Translations under genes and position numbers: made by a program
Shown here: in pieces, positions 27,203 through 38,864 of the stretch
How positions within the stretch are numbered: the first letter of the stretch is position 1
Layout: every line of letters begins with the position of its first letter
NCBI GenBank assembly: GCA_012519205.1
Contig: JAAYQR010000023.1
Location: 1-64,000, forward strand
From: Candidatus Epulonipiscium sp.
GTDB lineage: Bacteria; Bacillota; Clostridia; Lachnospirales; Defluviitaleaceae
Direction: 5' to 3'
Length of the DNA: 64,000 bases
The notes under the pieces: model-generated
Databases searched by the model: none
Told to the model about the DNA's origin: nothing
The model's input: only the letters and a program-made list of their open reading frames with translations

Positions 27203-28304
27203 TTAATGAATCCATTTAAGATATGCATTGATAAATCTATCAATATCCCCGTCCATAACTGCTGAAACATTTCCTGTTTCTTCGCTGGTCCGGTGATCCT
27301 TAACCATATTATAGGGATGAAAAACATAGGATCTTATTTGACTTCCCCAACCGATTTCTTTGACTTCGCCCCGAATACCCTGTAGCTTTTCCAGTTGCTC
27401 TTCTAGCTTTCTTTCATGCAACTTTGCCCTTAGCATTTTCATCGCTCTATCTTTATTTTTATGCTGTGAACGTTCATTTTGACATTGAACTACTATATTA
27501 GTAGGTACATGGGTAATGCGAACAGCGGAATCCGTCGTATTAACATGCTGCCCACCTGCTCCGCTGGATCTATAGGTATCAATTCTTATTTCCTCTGGAT
27601 TGATTTCTATATCCACATCATCATCTATTTCTGGAAGTACATCACAGGATGCAAAGGAAGTATGCCGTCTCCCAGAAGAATCAAAAGGCGAAATTCTAAC
27701 TAGACGATGGACACCCTTTTCTGATTTCAAATACCCATAGGCATTTTCACCATTTATCTGAATAGTAACCGATTTAATCCCTGCTTCATCTCCCGGCAAA
27801 TAGTCTAAGACTTCTACCTTATATCCTTTATCTTCTGACCATCTTATAACCATCCTGTAAAGCATGGATACCCAATCACAAGCCTCTGTTCCCCCTGCTC
27901 CAGAATGAAGAGTAAGTATTGCATTGTTCTTATCATATTCCCCATCTAATAAGGTGCCAATCCTCATATCTTCATAGTGCTTTATAAATTCTTTACTTAG
28001 ACCTTTTGCTTCCGGAATTAATTCTTCTTCTTTTTCTTCTAGGGCCATTTCAATAAGCGTAATTATATCTTCAAATTCCTCATAGAGTTCTTCGAACTTT
28101 TCTATTTTTGTTTTTAAAAATTTTATCTCTTGAAGGATTTTTTGAGCTCCCTCCATGTCATTCCAAAAATCTGAATCCGATGACTTTTTTTCTAAAATTA
28201 TGAGCCTTTTTTTAGCAGAAGCAATGTCAAAGTGAATCCCTCATTTCTTCTAGTCTATCCTTATAAGGCTGGAGCTCTAATTTTAATTGCTCAAGCTCTA
28301 ACAA
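27203..28304 (-). CDS. prfB: Peptide chain release factor 2 (programmed +1 frameshift)
   Basis: 366 aa after frameshift, standard for RF2. Reading starts at TTG 28302-28304 (GAGGAG upstream) and reaches an in-frame TGA at 28227-28229 after 25 codons. A +1 slip at CTT-TGA-C continues as DIASAKKRL into the long frame ending at 27203. The stop-codon recognition tripeptide SPF is in RISPFDSSG and the hydrolysis motif GGQ in [11 protein letters not shown]2 reads UGA and UAA, so the slip autoregulates synthesis. secA ends 35 nt upstream. Confidence 0.97.
28226..28244 (-). promoter_or_regulatory. RF2 autoregulatory +1 frameshift site
   Basis: Minus-strand GAGGGATTCACTTTGAC: a Shine-Dalgarno-like GAGGG stands a few bases before the CTT TGA C slip site (28226-28232). 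This matches the E. coli layout AGGGGGTATCTTTGAC. Slow decoding of UGA when RF2 is scarce lets the ribosome shift by +1. Confidence 0.93.
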
Positions 28305-28339: not shown

Positions 28340-30916
28340 TTATGCATTTTTTCCACAACAATGTTTATATTTTTTTCCACTACCACAGGGACAAGAATCA
28401 TTTCGTCCTATTTTCCCCTCTTTTCTCTTATAAGGGGTTCTTACACTGGATTCTTCTCCCCTATTAGTCGAAGTCGGTTCTGCAACTCTTTCCCTTTCAG
28501 GTTTATATGCAACCTTCACATGGAAAAGCGCACGAACTGTATCTTCTTGAATATTAGCACTCATCTCTTCAAACATATCATAACCAACAAATTGATATTC
28601 TACCAATGGATCTCTTTGTCCGTAAGCACGCAGGCCTATACCCTGACGCATTTGATCCATATTATCTATATGATCCATCCATTTTTGGTCAATTACTCGA
28701 AGGAGAATCACCCGCTCAATCTCACGCATTTGTTCTTCTCCGATTTCCTTTTCCTTACTGTCATATAATTTTAATGCTTTTTCTATTAACTTATCTTTTA
28801 GGGTTTCTTTTGTTATATCTTCTCTTTCTTCCTTCGATACTTCTACTTCTTCTATCGGGATTATTCTCACTAGGTAATCCCCAAGCCCTGCTATATTCCA
28901 ATCATCTGGATGTGGACTTTCTCCCGTGTTTATCTCTACTGCATGTTCCACGGTGTCTTTTATCATCTTTATGATATTACCTTTTAGATTATCTCCTTCT
29001 AACACCTTACGACGTTCCCCATATATGATTTCTCTTTGTTCATTCATAACCCTATCATATTCAAGTAAGTGCTTACGAATGGAGAAGTTATTACCTTCCA
29101 CCTTTTTTTGTGCATTTTCTATGGCTTTAGTGAGCATTTTATGCTCTATGGGTTCATCTTCTGGCATATTTATGGTTTCAAATATCTTTGCTATCCTATC
29201 TGAACCAAAAAGCCTCATTAAATCATCTTCAAGGGAAATATAAAAACGTGATTCCCCGGGGTCTCCTTGACGACCAGAACGACCTCTTAACTGATTATCA
29301 ATACGTCTTGATTCATGTCTTTCTGTACCAATAATCTTTAGTCCCCCTAATTCTACTACCCCTTCTCCAAGTTTAATATCTGTACCACGGCCTGCCATAT
29401 TGGTTGCAATGGTAACTGCACTCCTTTGTCCTGCCATAGCAACTATTTCGGCTTCTCTTTCATGATATTTTGCATTTAATACTTCATGCTTTACGCCTCT
29501 TTTTCTAAGAAGTTGGCTAAGCATTTCGGATGTTTCGATAGTTATAGTACCTACTAAAACTGGTTGTCCTTTTTCATAAGATTCTTCAATTTCGTTAACA
29601 ACAGCATTAAACTTTGCTTTTTCTGTTTTGTAAACTACATCTGAATGGTCAATACGGGCAACTGGTTTATTAGTAGGAATAACGATTACATCCATACCAT
29701 AAATTTGGCGGAATTCCTCTTCCTCTGTTAATGCAGTACCCGTCATACCACATTTTTTGTTGTATTTGTTAAAGTAATTCTGGAAAGTAATTGTTGCTAG
29801 AGTCTTACTTTCCCTATTTACCTCTACGTTTTCTTTAGCCTCTATAGCTTGGTGAAGCCCATCCGAATATCTTCTACCTGGCATTAGCCTTCCTGTAAAC
29901 TCATCAACTATTACGATTTCCCCATCATTAATGACATAATCTTTATCCAAATGCATAAGGTTATTGGCTTTAAGGGCTATGTTTATATGATGTTGTATTT
30001 CCATATTCTCAGGATCTGCCAAGTTATTTAGTCCAAAATATTGCTCTGCTTTTTTAACCCCTTCAGCTGTTAGGGTAACTGTTTTTGCCTTCTCATCAAC
30101 TACAAAGTCTCCTTCTTCTTCTACCTCTTGGCGCATTAGGTTATTTAAGGATGATTCTTCTGTTAATGTTTTTCCCTTAATTAATCGTCTAACTAAGGTA
30201 TCCGCTGCCTTATACAAATGAGTAGATTTAGAACTACTACCTGATATAATCAGTGGAGTTCTAGCTTCGTCTATTAATACTGAGTCCACTTCATCTATGA
30301 TTGCATAGTTAAGTTCCCTTTGAACCATTTCCTCTTTGTATATGACCATGTTATCTCTTAGGTAATCAAAGCCATATTCATTATTTGTTCCATAGGTAAT
30401 ATCACAGTTATAAGCCTCTCTGCGTTCTTCAGGATCCATATCGTTCAGAATAACTCCTACACTAAGTCCCAAAAATTCATGGACCTTCCCCATCCATTCT
30501 GCGTCACGTTTTGCCAGATAATCATTAACCGTTACAATGTGAACACCTTTTTCTTCTAGGGCATTCAAATATGCAGGAAGGGTGGAAACTAGGGTTTTAC
30601 CTTCCCCTGTTTTCATTTCAGATATTCTTCCTTGGTGCAAGATTACTCCCCCAACCAACTGAACTCTAAAATGTCTCATTTTTAATACTCTTGTAGCAGC
30701 CTCTCTTACAACTGCATAAGCCTCCGGTAGTATATCATCTAGGGTTTGTCCTGCGGATAATCGTTTTTTGAACTCATCTGTTTTAGCCCTTAGCTCATCA
30801 TCTGTTAGTTTTTCCATCTGTGGAGCCAACTCTTCAATATCATTAACAATGTCTTCTATTCTTTTTAGTTCACGTTTGCTATGACTTCCAAATATCTTTT
30901 CTAAAAAACTTTTCAC
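28340..30916 (-). CDS. secA: Preprotein translocase ATPase SecA
   Basis: 858 aa cytosolic/membrane-peripheral motor that drives proteins through SecYEG. DEAD-type motor with MKTGEGKTL (Walker A, about residue 100) and [13 protein letters not shown] (Walker B), preprotein cross-linking domain, second motor domain with [10 protein letters not shown], and a C-terminal SEC-C zinc motif [15 protein letters not shown]. Start is GTG at 30914-30916, AAGGTG upstream. Heads the secA-prfB-cheW unit. Confidence 0.97.
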
Positions 30917-31064: not shown

Positions 31065-31601
31065 CTAAAATTCTGGTTCAATTAACCCGTAGGTGCCATT
31101 TTTTCGTTTGTATACTACATTTACTTCTTCTGTTACCGCGTCTCTAAATACAAAAAAATCATGTCCTAGTAAATCCATCTGCATTGCCGCTTCTTCCACA
31201 TCCATAGGCTTGATTGCAAAACGTTTGGTTTTTTCTATAATGATTGATTCTTCATCCTCATTATCTTTTTCAATATTTTTTATGAATTCTTTTTTAAACG
31301 GGCTATTCCCCCTATGTTTATCCTTAAGACGGTTTTTAAATTTTAGTAACTGCTTTTCTAATACATCTACAACCTCATCAATTGCAGCATACATATCCTT
31401 TCCTTCAACTTCAGCCCTTAATATTGTTCCTTGAAAAGGGATCGTTACTTCCACAATATGTCTTAACTTCTCAACACTAAGGGTAACCTGTGCTTCTGTT
31501 TCAGCTATAAAAAACTTTTCTAATTTAGTTAGTTTATCCATTACTTTTTGCTGAAGGGCATTGGTAATTTCTATATTTGTTCCACTAATAATATAACGCA
31601 T
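31065..31601 (-). CDS. hpf: Ribosome hibernation promoting factor, long form
   Basis: 178 aa. The N-terminal 100 residues form the YfiA/HPF ribosome-binding domain (SGTNIEITNALQQKVMDKL). A charged linker leads to the C-terminal dimerisation domain (about 120-178, FAIKPMDVEEAAMQMDLLGHDFFVF, in part), as in proteins that make 100S ribosome dimers. ATG at 31599-31601 has AAAGGAG 9 nt upstream; a TTG three codons earlier is less likely. Monocistronic, with a possible sigma-H promoter. Confidence 0.95.
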   Translation of the reverse strand: MRYIISGTNIEITNALQQKVMDKLTKLEKFFIAETEAQVTLSVEKLRHIVEVTIPFQGTILRAEVEGKDMYAAIDEVVDVLEKQLLKFKNRLKDKHRGNSPFKKEFIKNIEKDNEDEESIIIEKTKRFAIKPMDVEEAAMQMDLLGHDFFVFRDAVTEEVNVVYKRKNGTYGLIEPEF

Positions 31602-31692: not shown

Positions 31693-31884
31693 TTTAAAAT
31701 AAACATTTTCTTAATTGTAGTTTTATCATTTAATATTTCATAATACAATGTAAAATTATCCACAAAATATTATAATCTGCACTATATATAGTCATAGGAC
31801 AGAAAAACAGCCTTATTCTTCTAAAAAAATGAAAACTCTTCAAATCAATAATAAAACAGGATTAGATTAAAATAAACATTTGTT

Positions 31885-32607
31885 TTACAAAACCTTACCC
31901 AAGAAAATCTTAGTTCTTTCTTCCTTAGGACTAGAGAATACCTTCTTTGGTCCTCCCTGCTCAATGATTTTTCCCTCATCCATAAAAAGCAGCCTTGTTC
32001 CTACTTCCTTTGCAAAACCCATTTCGTGGGTTACAATAACCATAGTCATACCTTCATTAGCCAAATCCTTAATTACCTCTAGCACTTCTTTTACCATTTC
32101 GGGGTCTAGAGCTGATGTGGGTTCATCAAACAACATAATCTCCGGGTTCATGGCAAGAGCCCTTGCTATAGCAATTCTTTGCTTTTGTCCCCCGGATAAT
32201 TTATTAGGATATTCTTTGGCCTTTTCCCTAAGCCCTACCTTATCTAGTAATTTATAGGCAATATCTCTTGCCTGCTCCTTGCTGTAACCTTTTAATTTAA
32301 TAGGTGCTAAGGTTAAATTGCTAATAACATCCATATGGGGAAATAGATTAAAGTGTTGAAAGACCATTCCTACCTTCTGGCGAACAAGATTAATATTGGT
32401 TTGCGGTGATGTTATGTCTATTCCTTCTACTTTAATCTGTCCTTTTGTGGGCTGTTCCATTAAATTGATGCATCTTAAAAAGGTGGATTTACCTGAACCG
32501 CTAGGCCCTATTACAACCACAACTTCTCCCTGCCTAATACACTCATTAATTCCCTTTAGCACTTTTAGGTTTCCGAAGTTTTTATACAAATCAATAACCT
32601 CAATCAC
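31885..32607 (-). CDS. glnQ: Polar amino acid ABC transporter, ATP-binding protein
   Basis: 240 aa ABC ATPase with Walker [10 protein letters not shown] (about residue 34), signature LSGGQKQR, Walker [13 protein letters not shown] and switch VTHEMGFA; the TSALDPEM and HFNLFPHM stretches are typical of the GlnQ/ArtP group. It overlaps the permease gene by 8 nt. The exact amino acid carried is not shown by sequence. The downstream 280-nt spacer has no convincing terminator. Confidence 0.9.
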
Positions 32608-33310
32608 TTTTTCTCATCCCCCTCTCTACAATACGCATAATCTTCGTAAATATTCCTGTCAGTATTAAATAAATAATTGCAACTGCCATCAATGGTTCAA
32701 ATCCCCTGTATGTCTGGCTTGTAATTATATTAGCGGAACGAAGTAAATCCGAGCCTCCAATAAATCCAACAATAGATGTTTCCTTAAGTAAAATTATAAA
32801 TTCACTTACCAATGTAGGTAAAATATTTTTTATAGCTTGTGGAATAATAATATGATACATTGCCATTCCATATCCCATACCAAGGGAACGAGCTGCTTCC
32901 ATTTGCCCCTTATCAAGGCCTTGTATCCCTGCTCTAACTATCTCAGCAACATAAGCCCCACTATTAATACCAAAAGCTATCCCCGCCACCAATAATTTAG
33001 GGGCATTAATCCCTCCAAATATCACTGTATGCATAATCATAAGCTGCACAACCGCTGGAGTCCCTCTAATGATATCAATATACATTGTTGCCAAAAATGA
33101 AAGGGGATTAAACTCTGCTAGCTTTCTACATCCCTTCTTCCCCCTTAAGAATTTAAATGGTTTAAATTCTGTTACTCGAAACAAAGCAATTACAACACCT
33201 ATAAAAACCCCAATAATAGCGGCAAATGCAGTTACTGCTAAGGAAAATCGAAGCCCATCTAAAATATATTTATATCTTTTATTCCCAAAGAATATTTCCC
33301 ATACCGACAT
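32600..33310 (-). CDS. Polar amino acid ABC transporter, permease
   Basis: 236 aa His/Glu/Gln/Arg-type permease with four to five membrane helices. The EAA-like loop is [27 protein letters not shown] short insertion of basic residues (about 55-65, [12 protein letters not shown]) follows the first cytoplasmic segment. GAGGTG lies 6 nt before the ATG. Couples with the overlapping ATPase gene and the upstream binding lipoprotein. Confidence 0.9.
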
Positions 33311-33418
33311 ACTCCCACCTCACATTACTTTTATTCCTATATTATTGAAGAAGTCTAAAAATAATCAATGCCCATTTTTGTCATTCCTCTGACTTTTACA
33401 TTCTATATTGTATCACAG

Positions 33419-33452
33419 AAAAAGGTCAGCAGTATATACTGCTAACCTTTTT
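33419..33452 (-). terminator. Attenuating hairpin after the binding-protein gene
   Basis: AAAAAGGTCAGCAGTA and TACTGCTAACCTTTTT pair over 16 positions with one mismatch, and the minus strand ends in TTTTTC. It lies between the binding-protein and permease genes, so it probably allows more binding protein than permease to be made. Confidence 0.8.
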
Positions 33453-33464
33453 AATTATTATTTT

Positions 33465-34223
33465 TTACTCATGAACAAAATATTTTTCTACCAGTTCATC
33501 GTACTCACCATTAGCTTTCATCTCTTCTAGTACAATATTTATAGTATCGATTAGTCCTTGGTCTCCCTTCCTAGCGGCTATTGCATACTCTTCTTGAGTT
33601 AGTTCCAGAGGCAAAATCTGTATTTTGTCATTTTGAGAACTAAAGTTTCTAGCTGGTTCAGAATCTAAAACAACCGCATCTACCTTACCATTTTGCAAAT
33701 CCATAATGGCAGCAAACGCCGCGTTAAACTGGACAACTTCTGCTCCTTCTATGGTTTGTGCTTCTTTATCTCCCGTTGTTCCTAACTGAACACCAATTTT
33801 TTTATTTTTAAGTTCTTCAGGGCCTTTTATTTCCGTATTGTCTTTCATAGTAACAATTACTTGGCTTGCTTCATAATATCCACTTGAGAAATCGACATTC
33901 TTCTTCCTCTCTTCGTCAACACTCATTCCAGCAGCAATAAAATCAATTTTGCCAGCTTGTAGGGCTGGTATTAAGCCGTCAAATAACATGTCTTCAATTT
34001 GTAGTTCTACCCCTAATTTTTTTGCTACTCTCTTTGCAATTTCGACATCAAAACCCGCTACTGTATCCCCTTCCCTGTATTCAAAAGGAGGAAACTCCGC
34101 ATTCGTCCCCATGACAATGACACCTTTTTGCGTAATATTTTTTAGAGTATCTATTTTTTTTCCACATCCAACCAATCCTACTAAAACTACTATTGTTAAT
34201 ATAAAACTTATTATTTTCTTCAT
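33465..34223 (-). CDS. Polar amino acid ABC transporter, substrate-binding lipoprotein
   Basis: 252 aa SBP_bac_3 protein. Lipobox LVGC near residue 20 anchors it to the outer face of the membrane. FPPFEYREG, GFDVEIAKRVAKKLG and DGLIPALQAGKIDFIAAG are hallmarks; the conserved arginine and aspartate that bind the amino-acid alpha groups are in EERKKNVDFS and VLDSEPA. GGGGAGG lies 5 nt before the ATG. First gene of its operon, with a promoter carrying two palindromes. Confidence 0.92.
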   Translation of the reverse strand: MKKIISFILTIVVLVGLVGCGKKIDTLKNITQKGVIVMGTNAEFPPFEYREGDTVAGFDVEIAKRVAKKLGVELQIEDMLFDGLIPALQAGKIDFIAAGMSVDEERKKNVDFSSGYYEASQVIVTMKDNTEIKGPEELKNKKIGVQLGTTGDKEAQTIEGAEVVQFNAAFAAIMDLQNGKVDAVVLDSEPARNFSSQNDKIQILPLELTQEEYAIAARKGDQGLIDTINIVLEEMKANGEYDELVEKYFVHE

Positions 34224-34242
34224 TATATCCTCCCCTTCTGTT

Positions 34243-34278
34243 TTGTATAATTATACAACCTGCTGTATAAACAGTCAA
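34243..34278 (-). promoter_or_regulatory. Promoter with palindromic operators for the amino acid importer
   Basis: Minus-strand TTGACT (34273-34278) and TATAAT (34250-34255) are 17 nt apart. A perfect palindrome TTGTATAATTATACAA (34243-34258) covers the -10, and a second, CTGT-ATAA-ACAG (34263-34274), covers the spacer and part of the -35. Both are well placed for a repressor, which I cannot identify. Confidence 0.75.
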
Positions 34279-34382
34279 CTGTTTTTATTATTTAGTTTTA
34301 TTATTTTTTGAGATATGTAAAAGAAATTTCCCTTGCAAAATTAAAACGATTAAAACTAAATATACATCTTTCATTCTCATTT

Positions 34383-34505
34383 TGTGAATAACTTTCTTAG
34401 TTTCCACAAAACATTTGTTTTGTGTACATAAAATCTGTGGATAATGTGGATAGTTTTGTGCATAACTATATTCATAGTACTTATAAGGTTTCTTTATGTG
34501 GATAA
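34383..34505 (-). other. DnaA-box cluster with adjacent AT-rich tract
   Basis: Minus-strand TTATNCACA boxes occur at 34383-34391 (TTATTCACA), 34436-34444 (TTATCCACA), 34457-34465 (TTATGCACA) and 34497-34505 (TTATCCACA), plus a one-mismatch CTATCCACA at 34445-34453. All five share one orientation. A very AT-rich stretch (about 34510-34680) follows. The cluster lies in the divergent spacer between an amino acid importer and a BusR-like regulator. It resembles a DnaA-binding locus or origin module; no dnaA or dnaN gene is in the window. Confidence 0.75.
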
Positions 34506-34691
34506 ACTTGTGAGTTTTTTATAATTGTAAAAGATTATGTTAATCTCAGCCGTTTTTTAAATAAAAATACCTTAACTAATGAATATGATTATTAATTAAA
34601 ATTATTATTGATGCATCAATTTATCCTTCTATATTTTAAATTGTGTCAAATTTCTCTACATTTTATTACAAATCAAACTAAAATATAAAGG

Positions 34692-34720
34692 TTGTCTGTT
34701 GTTAACACAAATGCTACAAT
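34692..34720 (+). promoter_or_regulatory. Promoter of the BusR-like regulator
   Basis: TTGTCT (34692-34697) and TACAAT (34715-34720) are 17 nt apart. The spacer includes TGTTAACA, a small palindrome. Confidence 0.6.
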
Positions 34721-34793
34721 TAAATCTAAGTTTTATTAGATGCTTTCAAATACAATATCCAATATAATTAAAGTGAAAATCCGAGGTGAAGAT

Positions 34794-35414
34794 ATGCAAA
34801 GCCGTGCAGGAGTTCCTGTGTATATGAAAATTGCAGTAGATATGGCAGGTAGAATTTATAAAGGAGAATTTTTAGAAGGAAACAAATTAAGGGGTCGCTC
34901 CACTTTAGCAGGGGAATATAATGTATCCCCTGAAACTATAAGAAGGGCTATGAGACTTCTCGAAGATATGGAAGTTGTTACTGTTACCCAAGGAAGTGGC
35001 ATCTATGTAAAATCAAAAGAGAAAGCCTATAGATTTATGGAGCGTTTTAAACAAAAAGAAAGCATTGATGAATTGAAAATTAGTGTAAAAAATCTGTTAG
35101 AACAGAAAAAGAAAATAGAAATTGATATCTTGGATAAATTAAATACCATTATAGAGTATGCCGATAAATTAAAACATAGTAATCTTATTACCCCTATGGA
35201 AATTGTTATTCCTTTTGATTCTCATACCATAGGTAAAAATATTTATGATACAAAGTTTTGGCAAAATACAGGAGCAACCATAGTAGGAATAAAAAGAGGG
35301 CAGGAACTTATAGTCTCCCCAGGACCCTATACTGAATTCCAACAGGGTGATATACTTATAATAGTCGGGGACCCCTACGTTAGAAATCGAACCAAGGAGT
35401 TTTTATCCGAATGA
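34794..35414 (+). CDS. busR: GntR-type HTH regulator with C-terminal RCK_C (TrkA-C) domain, BusR-like
   Basis: 206 aa. Winged helix of GntR type (about 5-75, STLAGEYNVSPETIRRAMRLLEDM contains the recognition helix), a coiled coil (about 80-120) and an RCK_C domain (about 130-205, ending in QQGDILIIVGDP). This order is that of BusR, a c-di-AMP-dependent repressor of osmolyte importers in streptococci and lactococci. It directly precedes an OpuC-type importer, which supports the same role. ATG at 34794 has GAGGTG upstream; an in-frame ATG 18 codons earlier lacks a site. Confidence 0.85.
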   Translation: MQSRAGVPVYMKIAVDMAGRIYKGEFLEGNKLRGRSTLAGEYNVSPETIRRAMRLLEDMEVVTVTQGSGIYVKSKEKAYRFMERFKQKESIDELKISVKNLLEQKKKIEIDILDKLNTIIEYADKLKHSNLITPMEIVIPFDSHTIGKNIYDTKFWQNTGATIVGIKRGQELIVSPGPYTEFQQGDILIIVGDPYVRNRTKEFLSE

Positions 35415-35473: not shown

Positions 35474-35481
35474 ATTGTGAT

Positions 35482-35531
35482 TTGACACCTGACAACTTTG
35501 GTGTTAGTATAGGTTGTTGGTTGGCAAAGTT
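35482..35531 (+). promoter_or_regulatory. Promoter and candidate operator of the OpuC-type operon
   Basis: TTGACA (35482-35487) and TAGTAT (35505-35510) are 17 nt apart. Two inverted repeats overlap it: TGACACC (35483-35489) with GGTGTTA (35500-35506), and AACTTTG (35494-35500) with CAAAGTT (35525-35531). These are candidate sites for the BusR-like protein, which in known cases binds paired half-sites. Confidence 0.6.
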
Positions 35532-35561
35532 ATCATAAAAATAAAGATAGGAGGATTGAAT

Positions 35562-36683
35562 ATGATTGTTTATGAAAATGTCACTAAAAGATATGATGAT
35601 ATAACTATTGTGGATAACCTTAACTTAACTATAAATAATGGAGAGTTTGTTGTTCTCATCGGCCCTTCCGGTTGTGGTAAAACTACAACTCTAAAAATGA
35701 TTAACAGATTAATAAAGACAAATGAGGGAAACATTTATATCGATGAACAAAATATTATGGAAATGAATGCCGTTGAACTCCGTAGAAAAATAGGTTATGT
35801 CATTCAACAAATTGGCCTTTTCCCTAATATGACCATAGAAGAAAATATATCCGTTGTTCCAAAACTATTAAAGTGGAGCAAAGAAAAATGTAATAAAAGA
35901 GTTCATGAACTTCTAGAAATGGTTGATTTACCCTATGATGAGAATGCTAAAAAATACCCTAACGAGTTAAGCGGGGGGCAACAACAAAGAATCGGTGTCT
36001 TAAGAGCATTGGCTGCAGAACCCCCCATCATTTTAATGGATGAACCCTTTGGGGCTTTGGATCCAGTAACAAGGGATGGTCTTCAAGATGAATTGAAAAC
36101 TTTACAAAAGAAATTAAATAAAACTATTATTTTTGTAACTCATGATATGGATGAAGCTGTTAAGATGGCAGATAAGATTGTCTTTATGTCTAAAGGTAAA
36201 ATCTTACAAGCTGCCACTCCTGAAGAAATGCTTAATAAACCTGCCGACCCAATTATCAGTGACTTTATGGGAAGATTGTCTTATTCCCGTAGTGGCAGTG
36301 ATTTAACCTGTGCAGATGTTATGAAAACCAGAGTTTTAACCCTCCCTGAAACTAAAAAAACCCTAGAATGCATTGAACATATGAAGCAAAAAGAACTTGA
36401 TTCAGCCATAATAATCGATAATAATGATAAATTCAAGGGAATTGTCACTATAGAATATATAAGAGATCATGGAAATCCCGGTGAAATGATATCTAAATTA
36501 GTTAATTCTAAAGTTCCTACAGTTACTTTAAATACCAATGCAAAGGAAGCCTTTGATTTGTTAATTGAAACTAAGGCTAGTTATCTGGTTGTTTTAAATA
36601 GAAACAAAACAATAGCAGGTATTATAACAAAAACCAGTATGACCAAGTCCCTAGCAAGTGTAGTTTGGGGTGAAGCAAATTGA
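35562..36683 (+). CDS. opuCA: Glycine betaine/carnitine/choline ABC transporter, ATP-binding protein with CBS domains
   Basis: 373 aa. ABC ATPase with Walker A GPSGCGKTT (about residue 37), signature LSGGQQQR, Walker B IILMDEPFGALD and switch VTHDMDEA, followed by tandem CBS domains (about 255-370). CBS domains in OpuA/OpuC ATPases act as ionic-strength or c-di-AMP sensors, another link to the upstream regulator. ATG at 35562 has AGGAGG 7 nt upstream. First gene of opuCA-CB-CD-CC. Confidence 0.93.
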   Translation: MIVYENVTKRYDDITIVDNLNLTINNGEFVVLIGPSGCGKTTTLKMINRLIKTNEGNIYIDEQNIMEMNAVELRRKIGYVIQQIGLFPNMTIEENISVVPKLLKWSKEKCNKRVHELLEMVDLPYDENAKKYPNELSGGQQQRIGVLRALAAEPPIILMDEPFGALDPVTRDGLQDELKTLQKKLNKTIIFVTHDMDEAVKMADKIVFMSKGKILQAATPEEMLNKPADPIISDFMGRLSYSRSGSDLTCADVMKTRVLTLPETKKTLECIEHMKQKELDSAIIIDNNDKFKGIVTIEYIRDHGNPGEMISKLVNSKVPTVTLNTNAKEAFDLLIETKASYLVVLNRNKTIAGIITKTSMTKSLASVVWGEAN

Positions 36684-37324
36684 AGATGATTATAACCTTT
36701 CTAGAAAGATATGGAGATATGCTCATTAAATCAATACTTATTCATTTACAATATGTTTTTATCTCAGTAAGTATAGGATTTGTCGTTGCTTTATTTCTCG
36801 GAATATTATTATCTAGAGCACCTAAGGTTTCAAAAATAGTAATTCCCTTAATAGGGGTTTTTCAAACGATTCCCGGGTTGGTTTTTATCGGCGTGCTTTT
36901 TATATACCTAGGAATGAAACCTCTAACCGTTATCACAGCACTTTCTATATATGCCCTGTTTCCCATCCTTAAAAACACCTATACAGGTATTGTTAATGTT
37001 GATAAAAACCTGAAAGAAGCAGCTCGGGGCTGTGGGATGACCAAAATGCAAATTTTATTCAAAGTGGAGCTGCCCCTAGCAATGGGTTCGATATTTAACG
37101 GTTTAAGAATGTCTACCATATATACGGTAAGCTGGGCCGTATTGGCTGCCATGATTGGTCTTGGAGGATTGGGAGAATTCGTATATCGTGGAATTGAAAC
37201 CAATAATCAAACCTTAATTATTGGTGGTGCCCTACCCTCTGCTATTCTAGCGATGGTTCTTGGATATATTATAGATACTGTTCATAAAAAAATAACCCCA
37301 CGGGGTCTGCAAGGGAGGATGTAG
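36680..37324 (+). CDS. opuCB: Glycine betaine/carnitine/choline ABC transporter, permease
   Basis: 214 aa permease with five to six membrane helices and the EAA loop DKNLKEAARGCGMTKMQILFKVELPLAMG. Start is TTG at 36680, overlapping the opuCA stop as TTGA with GGGGTG 7 nt upstream; ATG at 36686 is the alternative. Pairs with the next permease gene. Confidence 0.9.
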   Translation: MKMIITFLERYGDMLIKSILIHLQYVFISVSIGFVVALFLGILLSRAPKVSKIVIPLIGVFQTIPGLVFIGVLFIYLGMKPLTVITALSIYALFPILKNTYTGIVNVDKNLKEAARGCGMTKMQILFKVELPLAMGSIFNGLRMSTIYTVSWAVLAAMIGLGGLGEFVYRGIETNNQTLIIGGALPSAILAMVLGYIIDTVHKKITPRGLQGRM

Positions 37325-37325
37325 T

Positions 37326-37925
37326 ATGGAAATATCAAGAGTATTTGAACATTTGTACTTGGTAGCTATTGCTTCATCTATAACAACCTTATTCGGATTA
37401 ATTCTTGGGGTTTTATGTCATATTTTTAAACCTACTAAAAAAGTTATTCTTTGGATAGTGGATGTGTTGCAGACTCTTCCAGTTTTAGCCCTACTTGGCT
37501 TAATAATGATTGTTTTTGGTGCCACAAGTACCACTGTAATAGTAGGACTTGTGCTTTATTCCTTGCTCCCCATTGTTAGAAATACCTATGTAGGTCTAGA
37601 AGATATCGAGCCTGGAATAAAAGAAGCAGCCAAAGGGATGGGAATGACCAAAATCCAAAGATTGTTCAAAATCGAGTTGCCCTTAGCCTTTCCTATGATT
37701 TTTACGGGAATAAGAATTGCTGTAGTCACGTCTATCGGTACTGCTGTATTTGGTGCAATCGTAGGTGGTGGTGGCTTAGGATCAACTATAAATAGAGCTA
37801 TCCTTATTCAGGATATGACTACTTTAATGGAAGCAACCATAGCCCTTATGCTTATGGCAATTCTTTTTGATCTTGGTATGGGGTATATGGAAAGCCGATT
37901 AAAAACTCGACAATTCAAAAATTAA
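37326..37925 (+). CDS. opuCD: Glycine betaine/carnitine/choline ABC transporter, second permease
   Basis: 199 aa permease paralogous to the preceding one, with EAA loop EPGIKEAAKGMGMTKIQRLFKIELPLAFP. GGGAGG lies 7 nt before the ATG, inside the end of the previous gene. Encoded before the binding protein here, so the gene order is CA-CB-CD-CC. Confidence 0.9.
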   Translation: MEISRVFEHLYLVAIASSITTLFGLILGVLCHIFKPTKKVILWIVDVLQTLPVLALLGLIMIVFGATSTTVIVGLVLYSLLPIVRNTYVGLEDIEPGIKEAAKGMGMTKIQRLFKIELPLAFPMIFTGIRIAVVTSIGTAVFGAIVGGGGLGSTINRAILIQDMTTLMEATIALMLMAILFDLGMGYMESRLKTRQFKN

Positions 37926-37937
37926 AAGGAGATTAAC

Positions 37938-38864
37938 ATGTTTAAATTCAAAAGAATGATTTCTGCTTTAATAATTATGTCTATACTTATGGCATCATCT
38001 ACAGCGTGCAATTCTAGAGGGGACTCTAAAAATGAAATAATATTGCTTAGGGGGTATTTTTCTGAAATTGAAATTTTGATACAAATGGCAGGTATATTAA
38101 TAGAAGAAAACACCGATTTAAAGGTTATCTTCCATGATTCCATGCAAACTATTCCAGCTTCAAAAGCTAATCGAGCGGGGGAAGTCGATCTCTTTGTATC
38201 TTATGATGGTACCCATCTTACAACCTTAATGGGCCGTGATACAAAAGATGTGCCGGAGGATGAAGAGCTTTTTGAATGGGTAAGAAAAGAAGGCGCTAAA
38301 GAATTAGGCCTTACATTAACTGATAAATTTGGATTTGAAAACACCTATGCCATAGCCCTTAAGAAGGAATTTACTGAGGAAAACAATATTGAAACTATCA
38401 GTGACTTAGTACCTTTTTCAAAAGACTTGGTATTTGGTGCTGAACATGAATTTTTCGATGATGAAGCCTCCATGCGTTTTAATCCGTTTAATGAATACTA
38501 TAATACCCAATGGGCTGATAGTAAATCCATCGATATCGGTCTTAAATATGCTGCAATAGACAATGGTAATATTGATGTAACGATAGCTTTTTCAACGGAT
38601 GGTTTAAATAGAAAGTCTGGTTTAAAGACTCTTATTGATGATAAATCCTTCTTCCCGCAATATTACGGGGCCTTTCAAATAAGAGATTCTTTATTCGAAG
38701 AATATGCCGAAACCGCACCGAATCTAGAGAAGGTATTAAATAGCTTGGCCGGTCTTATAGATAATGAAACGATGACCGAAATGAATTATCAGGTAGATGC
38801 AGAAGGTCGCAACCCCACTGATGTTGCTAAAGAATTTTTAGTAGAAAATGGCTTGTCTAAATAA
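37938..38864 (+). CDS. opuCC: Glycine betaine/carnitine/choline-binding lipoprotein
   Basis: 308 aa OpuAC-type binding protein. A signal peptide ends in a lipobox near residue 24 (STAC). Aromatic residues that could cage a quaternary amine include those in VSYDGTHL, NEYYNTQW and FFPQYYGAF. AAAGGAG lies about 8 nt before the ATG. Last gene of the operon; no strong terminator follows. Confidence 0.9.
   Translation: MFKFKRMISALIIMSILMASSTACNSRGDSKNEIILLRGYFSEIEILIQMAGILIEENTDLKVIFHDSMQTIPASKANRAGEVDLFVSYDGTHLTTLMGRDTKDVPEDEELFEWVRKEGAKELGLTLTDKFGFENTYAIALKKEFTEENNIETISDLVPFSKDLVFGAEHEFFDDEASMRFNPFNEYYNTQWADSKSIDIGLKYAAIDNGNIDVTIAFSTDGLNRKSGLKTLIDDKSFFPQYYGAFQIRDSLFEEYAETAPNLEKVLNSLAGLIDNETMTEMNYQVDAEGRNPTDVAKEFLVENGLSK

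Follow-up and report, generated by a model that had tools for sequence, protein, structure and literature searches.

Why should a chromosome carry a dense row of DnaA boxes at a place where no dnaA gene lies? The question is raised by an intergenic spacer (34224-34739) within the window, i.e. the whole stretch of 64,000 nucleotides of Candidatus Epulonipiscium sp. (contig JAAYQR010000023.1) analysed here, from a family which we take to be the GTDB Defluviitaleaceae in the order Lachnospirales. A preliminary description had offered two answers: a second DnaA-binding locus similar to the clusters known in B. subtilis, or an origin displaced from dnaA. The spacer lies between a leftward amino-acid ABC operon and a rightward GntR/TrkA_C regulator, and the five boxes of the array, with offsets given relative to box C, are the following.

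34497..34505, minus strand: box A, TTATCCACA, offset -52
34457..34465, minus strand: box B, TTATGCACA, offset -12
34445..34453, minus strand: box C, CTATCCACA, one mismatch, abutting box D, offset 0
34436..34444, minus strand: box D, TTATCCACA, offset +9
34383..34391, minus strand: box E, TTATTCACA, offset +62

These positions bear out what had been described, namely four exact copies of TTATNCACA (at 34383, 34436, 34457 and 34497) and a one-mismatch copy at 34445 which abuts the exact box at 34436, all within 123 bp (34383-34505) and in a single orientation; a second one-mismatch box, TTATGTACA, is found at 34423, likewise on the minus strand. The very AT-rich tract reported beside the boxes is also real (20% GC at 34506-34700 versus 35% for the whole window), and it is located 5' of the boxes when TTATNCACA is read. 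Chance occurrence of boxes in AT-rich DNA is ruled out on three counts: (i) given the local composition, only 0.016-0.025 exact boxes are expected in 123 bp, and none of 20,000 simulated stretches of this length reached four; (ii) at the rate of the genome to which the window belongs, which has 127 exact boxes over 2.13 Mb, about 8e-6 clusters this dense are expected genome-wide; and (iii) among 63 overlapping AT-rich 200-bp segments (GC < 0.27) of the window, those outside the array spacer contain at most one exact box each, so that the density, which was to be judged against comparable AT-rich spacers, is indeed higher in the array.

Dense boxes adjoining AT-rich DNA are a trait which the array shares with a Firmicute oriC containing a DnaA-trio unwinding region, and this likeness is what speaks for an origin. 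In such origins the boxes are followed, on their 3' side, by the DnaA-trios and the DNA that melts. The array, however, has its AT-rich tract on the wrong side, and past box E, in the 3' direction of TTATTCACA, the sequence AAATGAGAATGAAAGATG contains no trio run. Moreover, the dnaA gene of the same genome, correctly noted as missing from the window, resides on another contig (C3), where nine exact boxes are found upstream of it and where TTTCCACACCCCCTACTACTATGATTAC, located between dnaA and dnaN, resembles in sequence the unwinding region with DnaA-trios known from C. difficile (PMC7561715). A standard, dnaA-linked oriC is present there. The GC skew within the window exhibits no lasting sign switch at the element. 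In the complete genome of a relative (G003), the element (2,418,775-2,418,999) and dnaA (1,912,981) are 506 kb apart in 3.01 Mb, a distance that pertains to G003, the window's own genome being a draft. The skew, the location of dnaA, and the trio region and upstream boxes on C3 thus effectively rule out the proposed displaced origin, and we consider it exceedingly improbable that the array is an origin of either kind, second or displaced.

What is conserved at this locus becomes apparent when the family is compared.

34373..34598: whole conserved element, 226 bp, kept in 8 of 8 family genomes examined
34401..34429: inverted repeat TTTCCACAAAACAtttGTTTTGTGTACAT (CACAAAACA / TGTTTTGTG) between boxes E and D, overlapping the weak box TTATGTACA at 34423
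34571..34598, plus strand: conserved tail CTTAACTAATGAATATGATTATTAATTA, box-free, near-invariant in 7 genomes

The alignment of the element from seven genomes exhibits 79% mean column identity, and a profile search recovered it from each of the eight family genomes (E 1e-38 to 1e-52), the eighth, G007, having been added by this search only. A loss of the boxes in close relatives, named in the preliminary description as a possible refutation, is thus not observed. In six relatives the boxes recur upstream of the orthologous regulator gene with equal or nearly equal spacing, and the family offsets are fixed at -52 (or -43) for box A, -12 for B, 0 for C, +9 for D and +62 for E. The left block ATTCTCATTTTGTG is invariant in the seven-element alignment, while the inverted repeat CACAAAACA-TGTTTTGTG is kept with small changes in six of the seven genomes and is decayed in G001. 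All aligned family genomes likewise exhibit the near-invariant, box-free tail (TTAAYGAATGAATATGATTATTAATTA at window 34571-34598; in the family alignment, AATGANTATGATTATTAATT), which lies on the side of the array facing the regulator gene. No other copy of the tail with fewer than two mismatches was found in the six genomes searched, and we discarded the tail as a recurrent regulator site, the copies elsewhere having two to three mismatches and being mostly not far above a reversed-pattern control.

The genes on either side of the array are arranged as follows.

34740..35414, plus strand: BusR-like regulator with GntR and TrkA_C (RCK_C) domains (Pfam)
35514..38864, plus strand: betaine/choline-type (ProV/OpuB) ABC transporter operon, comprising ATPase with CBS, two permeases and an OpuAC binding protein
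31885..34223, minus strand: amino-acid ABC operon (SBP 33465-34223, permease 32600-33310, ATPase 31885-32607)
31065..31601, minus strand: hpf, long hibernation-promoting factor (Pfam S30AE and S30AE_C)
28340..30916, minus strand: secA
27203-28156: prfB, next after secA

The genes of the amino-acid ABC operon, hpf and secA all point in one direction, away from the array. BusR is a regulator of osmolyte transport that binds c-di-AMP and has GntR and RCK_C domains (PMC8517857). The gene at 34740..35414 resembles BusR by virtue of the same predicted domain pair. Its orthologues in relatives are 77-80% identical, and it adjoins the array in every Defluviitaleaceae genome in which the contig goes on; its absence next to the element of G007 is uninformative, since that contig ends about 190 bp past the element. 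The spacer preceding the betaine operon (window 35480-35530) contains TGACAACTT...GGTTGTT, with a similar motif in relatives; this may be a bipartite operator on which the BusR-like regulator acts.

The profile of the family element also had matches in further families, frequently at a short distance 5' of hpf. We inspected 59 hpf-upstream regions that were picked by their hpf match and not by boxes, mostly one per genus; they represent best-scoring hpf matches, with some families thinly sampled and related genomes counted in. In these regions the box density amounts to 1.93/kb in the last 700 bp and to 0.083/kb farther out. The abutting pair is present in 27 of the 59, and of these 27 regions, a box at exactly -12 occurs in 21 (0.015 expected) and one at -52 to -55 in 23 (0.015 expected per offset). 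Hence, the geometry with offsets -52..-55, -12, 0 and +9 is repeatedly encountered 5' of hpf across the order. A search with the exact pattern across the class matched in 9 of 391 cases, two of which lie 5' of hpf in further families (f92 and f69). Some model matches in other families (L317, L323) turned out to be oriC itself and were set aside. The same applies to L056, an IMG/VR contig coding for phage-like proteins, whose box string is similar but whose locus is not homologous; this tandem string, aatgtggataatgtggataactttgtggataac (L056:4948-4975), is intergenic. In the window itself, a single exact TTATCCACA at 31756-31764, about 150 bp upstream of hpf, is perhaps a remnant of an ancestral hpf-adjacent position.

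Several further box clusters are conserved in the family; in G003, the positions of conserved clusters relative to dnaA are about +152, +252, +506, +565 and -487 kb. Between murC and an operon for a DnaD-domain protein and a DnaI-like helicase loader there are two abutting TTATCCACATTATCCACA pairs, separated by about 160 bp (L016:8199-8377, i.e. G000:C26:116198-116376); they are conserved family-wide, and their placement suggests that DnaA may feed back on helicase loading. The cluster TTATCCACACTATCCACAAAGTTATGCACA near a PrpE-like phosphatase gene (L013:4955-4984, i.e. G000:C4:56454-56483) is nearly identical in the family, and tandem boxes with 11-12 bp spacing are found beside pepF (L014:4660-4707 on G000:C9, and G003:C1:2064732-2064773), their number rising to five or six in some relatives.

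The main rival to a locus that acts on replication is that DnaA serves as a transcription factor at the array, controlling hpf in other families and, in Defluviitaleaceae, the divergent BusR-like gene and/or the amino-acid ABC-hpf-secA operon, whereby osmolyte uptake or ribosome hibernation would be coupled to the state of replication. Such control of the flanking genes is possible, and it finds its best support within Defluviitaleaceae, where the conserved tail faces the constantly adjoining BusR-like gene, which in G003 is the sole neighbour having its 5' end towards the array. In the same vein, the ABC genes, hpf and secA of the window are all transcribed away from the array, the array is located directly 5' of hpf, mostly in one orientation relative to it, in many genera of other families, and in B. 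subtilis several genes, sda and ywlC among them, are under DnaA control from clusters of this kind (PMC4447404). Yet the adjoining genes differ from family to family, and no single target fits: hpf and secA are found beyond the amino-acid ABC operon in the window, G001 and G002; in f1 the array is upstream of that operon with hpf further on; in f2 it precedes the same operon (ATPase 74-78% identical), with hpf about 5 kb past the operon in G196; and in G003 the array and ABC-hpf have extra genes between them, hpf being about 12 kb off. In one genus of f23 (L298-L300) the array even lies 3' of hpf, between hpf and secA, and in at least four Lachnospirales genomes it occupies a convergent 3'-3' gap, flanked by genes with Pfam matches to NlpC/P60 and V-ATPase D (G172, G330) or to Pyr_redox (Pyr_redox_2 oxidoreductases) and V-ATPase D (G349, G328); the array of G359, where one flanking frame has no Pfam match, is probably also in such a gap. 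A convergent gap offers no obvious promoter for DnaA to control. The distance between array and hpf ranges from about 170 to more than 12,000 bp, and BusR-like orthologues of other families (G013, G008, G010) occur without the array. A pure regulatory element of the BusR operon is thus weakened, other families keeping the array without the gene or the gene without the array, and so is a pure hpf promoter element, since the array is also found in convergent gaps, 3' of hpf and, in G003, 12 kb away from it. The array, encountered at hpf-secA, at the amino-acid ABC operon and in convergent gaps, outlives its neighbours; across families no constant target is found downstream, the BusR-like gene being constant only within Defluviitaleaceae. 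Overall, we regard it as possible but rather doubtful that DnaA acts as a transcription factor here.

One may also ask whether DnaA is the protein concerned, or whether some other protein reads the 9-mers and their match to the DnaA consensus is incidental. The conserved palindrome and tail indicate that at least one further factor may bind. The motif, however, is the DnaA consensus, and the boxes at the genome's own oriC are made of it too; a single full-length DnaA is encoded in each genome checked, and another conserved cluster is located upstream of the DnaD-DnaI-like helicase-loader operon, all of which makes a different reader of the boxes very unlikely.

On balance, we favour as probable that the array is a predicted DnaA-binding site outside oriC, comparable to the clusters of B. 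subtilis, which tunes the start of replication. Of the two initial proposals it is the second DnaA-binding locus that is well supported, by the conservation of boxes and spacing and by the reappearance of the geometry elsewhere, both at different loci and in different families. As for B. subtilis-type clusters, several consensus boxes are found within about 200 bp outside dnaA-dnaN, and they are conserved and origin-proximal: the array-dnaA distance amounts to 2 to 20.4% of the length of the chromosome (or main contig) in eight complete or near-complete chromosomes (G003, G112, G130, G192, G268, G328, G349 and G378), a result which is supportive only, as these are related genomes with conserved gene order. 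We infer that DnaA would bind and assemble cooperatively into an oligomer on the fixed row of co-oriented boxes, in the part of the chromosome near the origin, and that the array would then hold DnaA (titration), limit the DnaA available to oriC and so affect the timing of initiation; alternatively, it might change the nucleotide state of DnaA, as do E. coli datA and DARS. Several points argue against this reading: 32 of the 59 hpf-upstream regions are devoid of the abutting pair, so that the array is not indispensable there; the conserved tail on the side of the BusR-like gene could be a sign that a gene is controlled; some gene still lies downstream of the array at most loci; and conserved gene order by itself may account for the proximity to the origin. 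It is tempting to go further and to speculate that the array of fixed geometry (A -52, B -12, C 0, D +9) constitutes a trans-family control element of Clostridia, a functional datA/DARS counterpart acting on the nucleotide state or availability of DnaA; we consider this broader view tentative and rather unlikely, although, if true, it would provide such a counterpart in a phylum thought to have none.

A DnaA-box cluster outside oriC is as such a known kind of locus, and the DnaA-box clusters (DBCs) of B. subtilis were reportedly described by Okumura et al. 2012. The DBCs likewise comprise several dense groups outside oriC that are origin-proximal, in some cases upstream of genes and in one case in a convergent gap, gcp/ydiF, which is a strong DnaA-binding region in vitro (PMC4447404). 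According to two reviews (PMC5295017, PMC13220808), loss of six such clusters leads to early initiation. However, DnaA binding has been measured for the DBCs, whereas for the present array it is predicted; the strong loci of B. subtilis are ywcI, gcp/ydiF, trmE, ywlC, yqeG/sda and yydA, with hpf-secA not among them; and in the literature searched, with partial coverage, we found no fixed box geometry common to loci and families, be it for the DBCs or otherwise, and a full-text search of equally partial coverage yielded no link between DnaA boxes and hibernation promoting factor. E. coli datA resembles the array in being non-coding and near the origin, in having five DnaA boxes (five are counted in the array) and in the conserved spacing between key sites; datA also has a second protein site (IHF) and stimulates DnaA-ATP hydrolysis; B. 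subtilis is devoid of both IHF and datA (PMC13220808). E. coli DARS1 and DARS2 are likewise short arrays with conserved DnaA-box spacing (PMC4585315), from which the present array differs in that all its strong boxes are co-oriented. Firmicute clusters outside oriC are known mainly from B. subtilis, which has no recognised equivalent of datA or DARS and for which it is an open question whether the nucleotide state of DnaA is regulated. An array of constant spacing, kept across families despite changing gene neighbours, offers a defined and transplantable piece of DNA with which titration or nucleotide cycling of DnaA can be examined in Clostridia, and its geometry provides a sequence signature by which such elements can be found in draft genomes.
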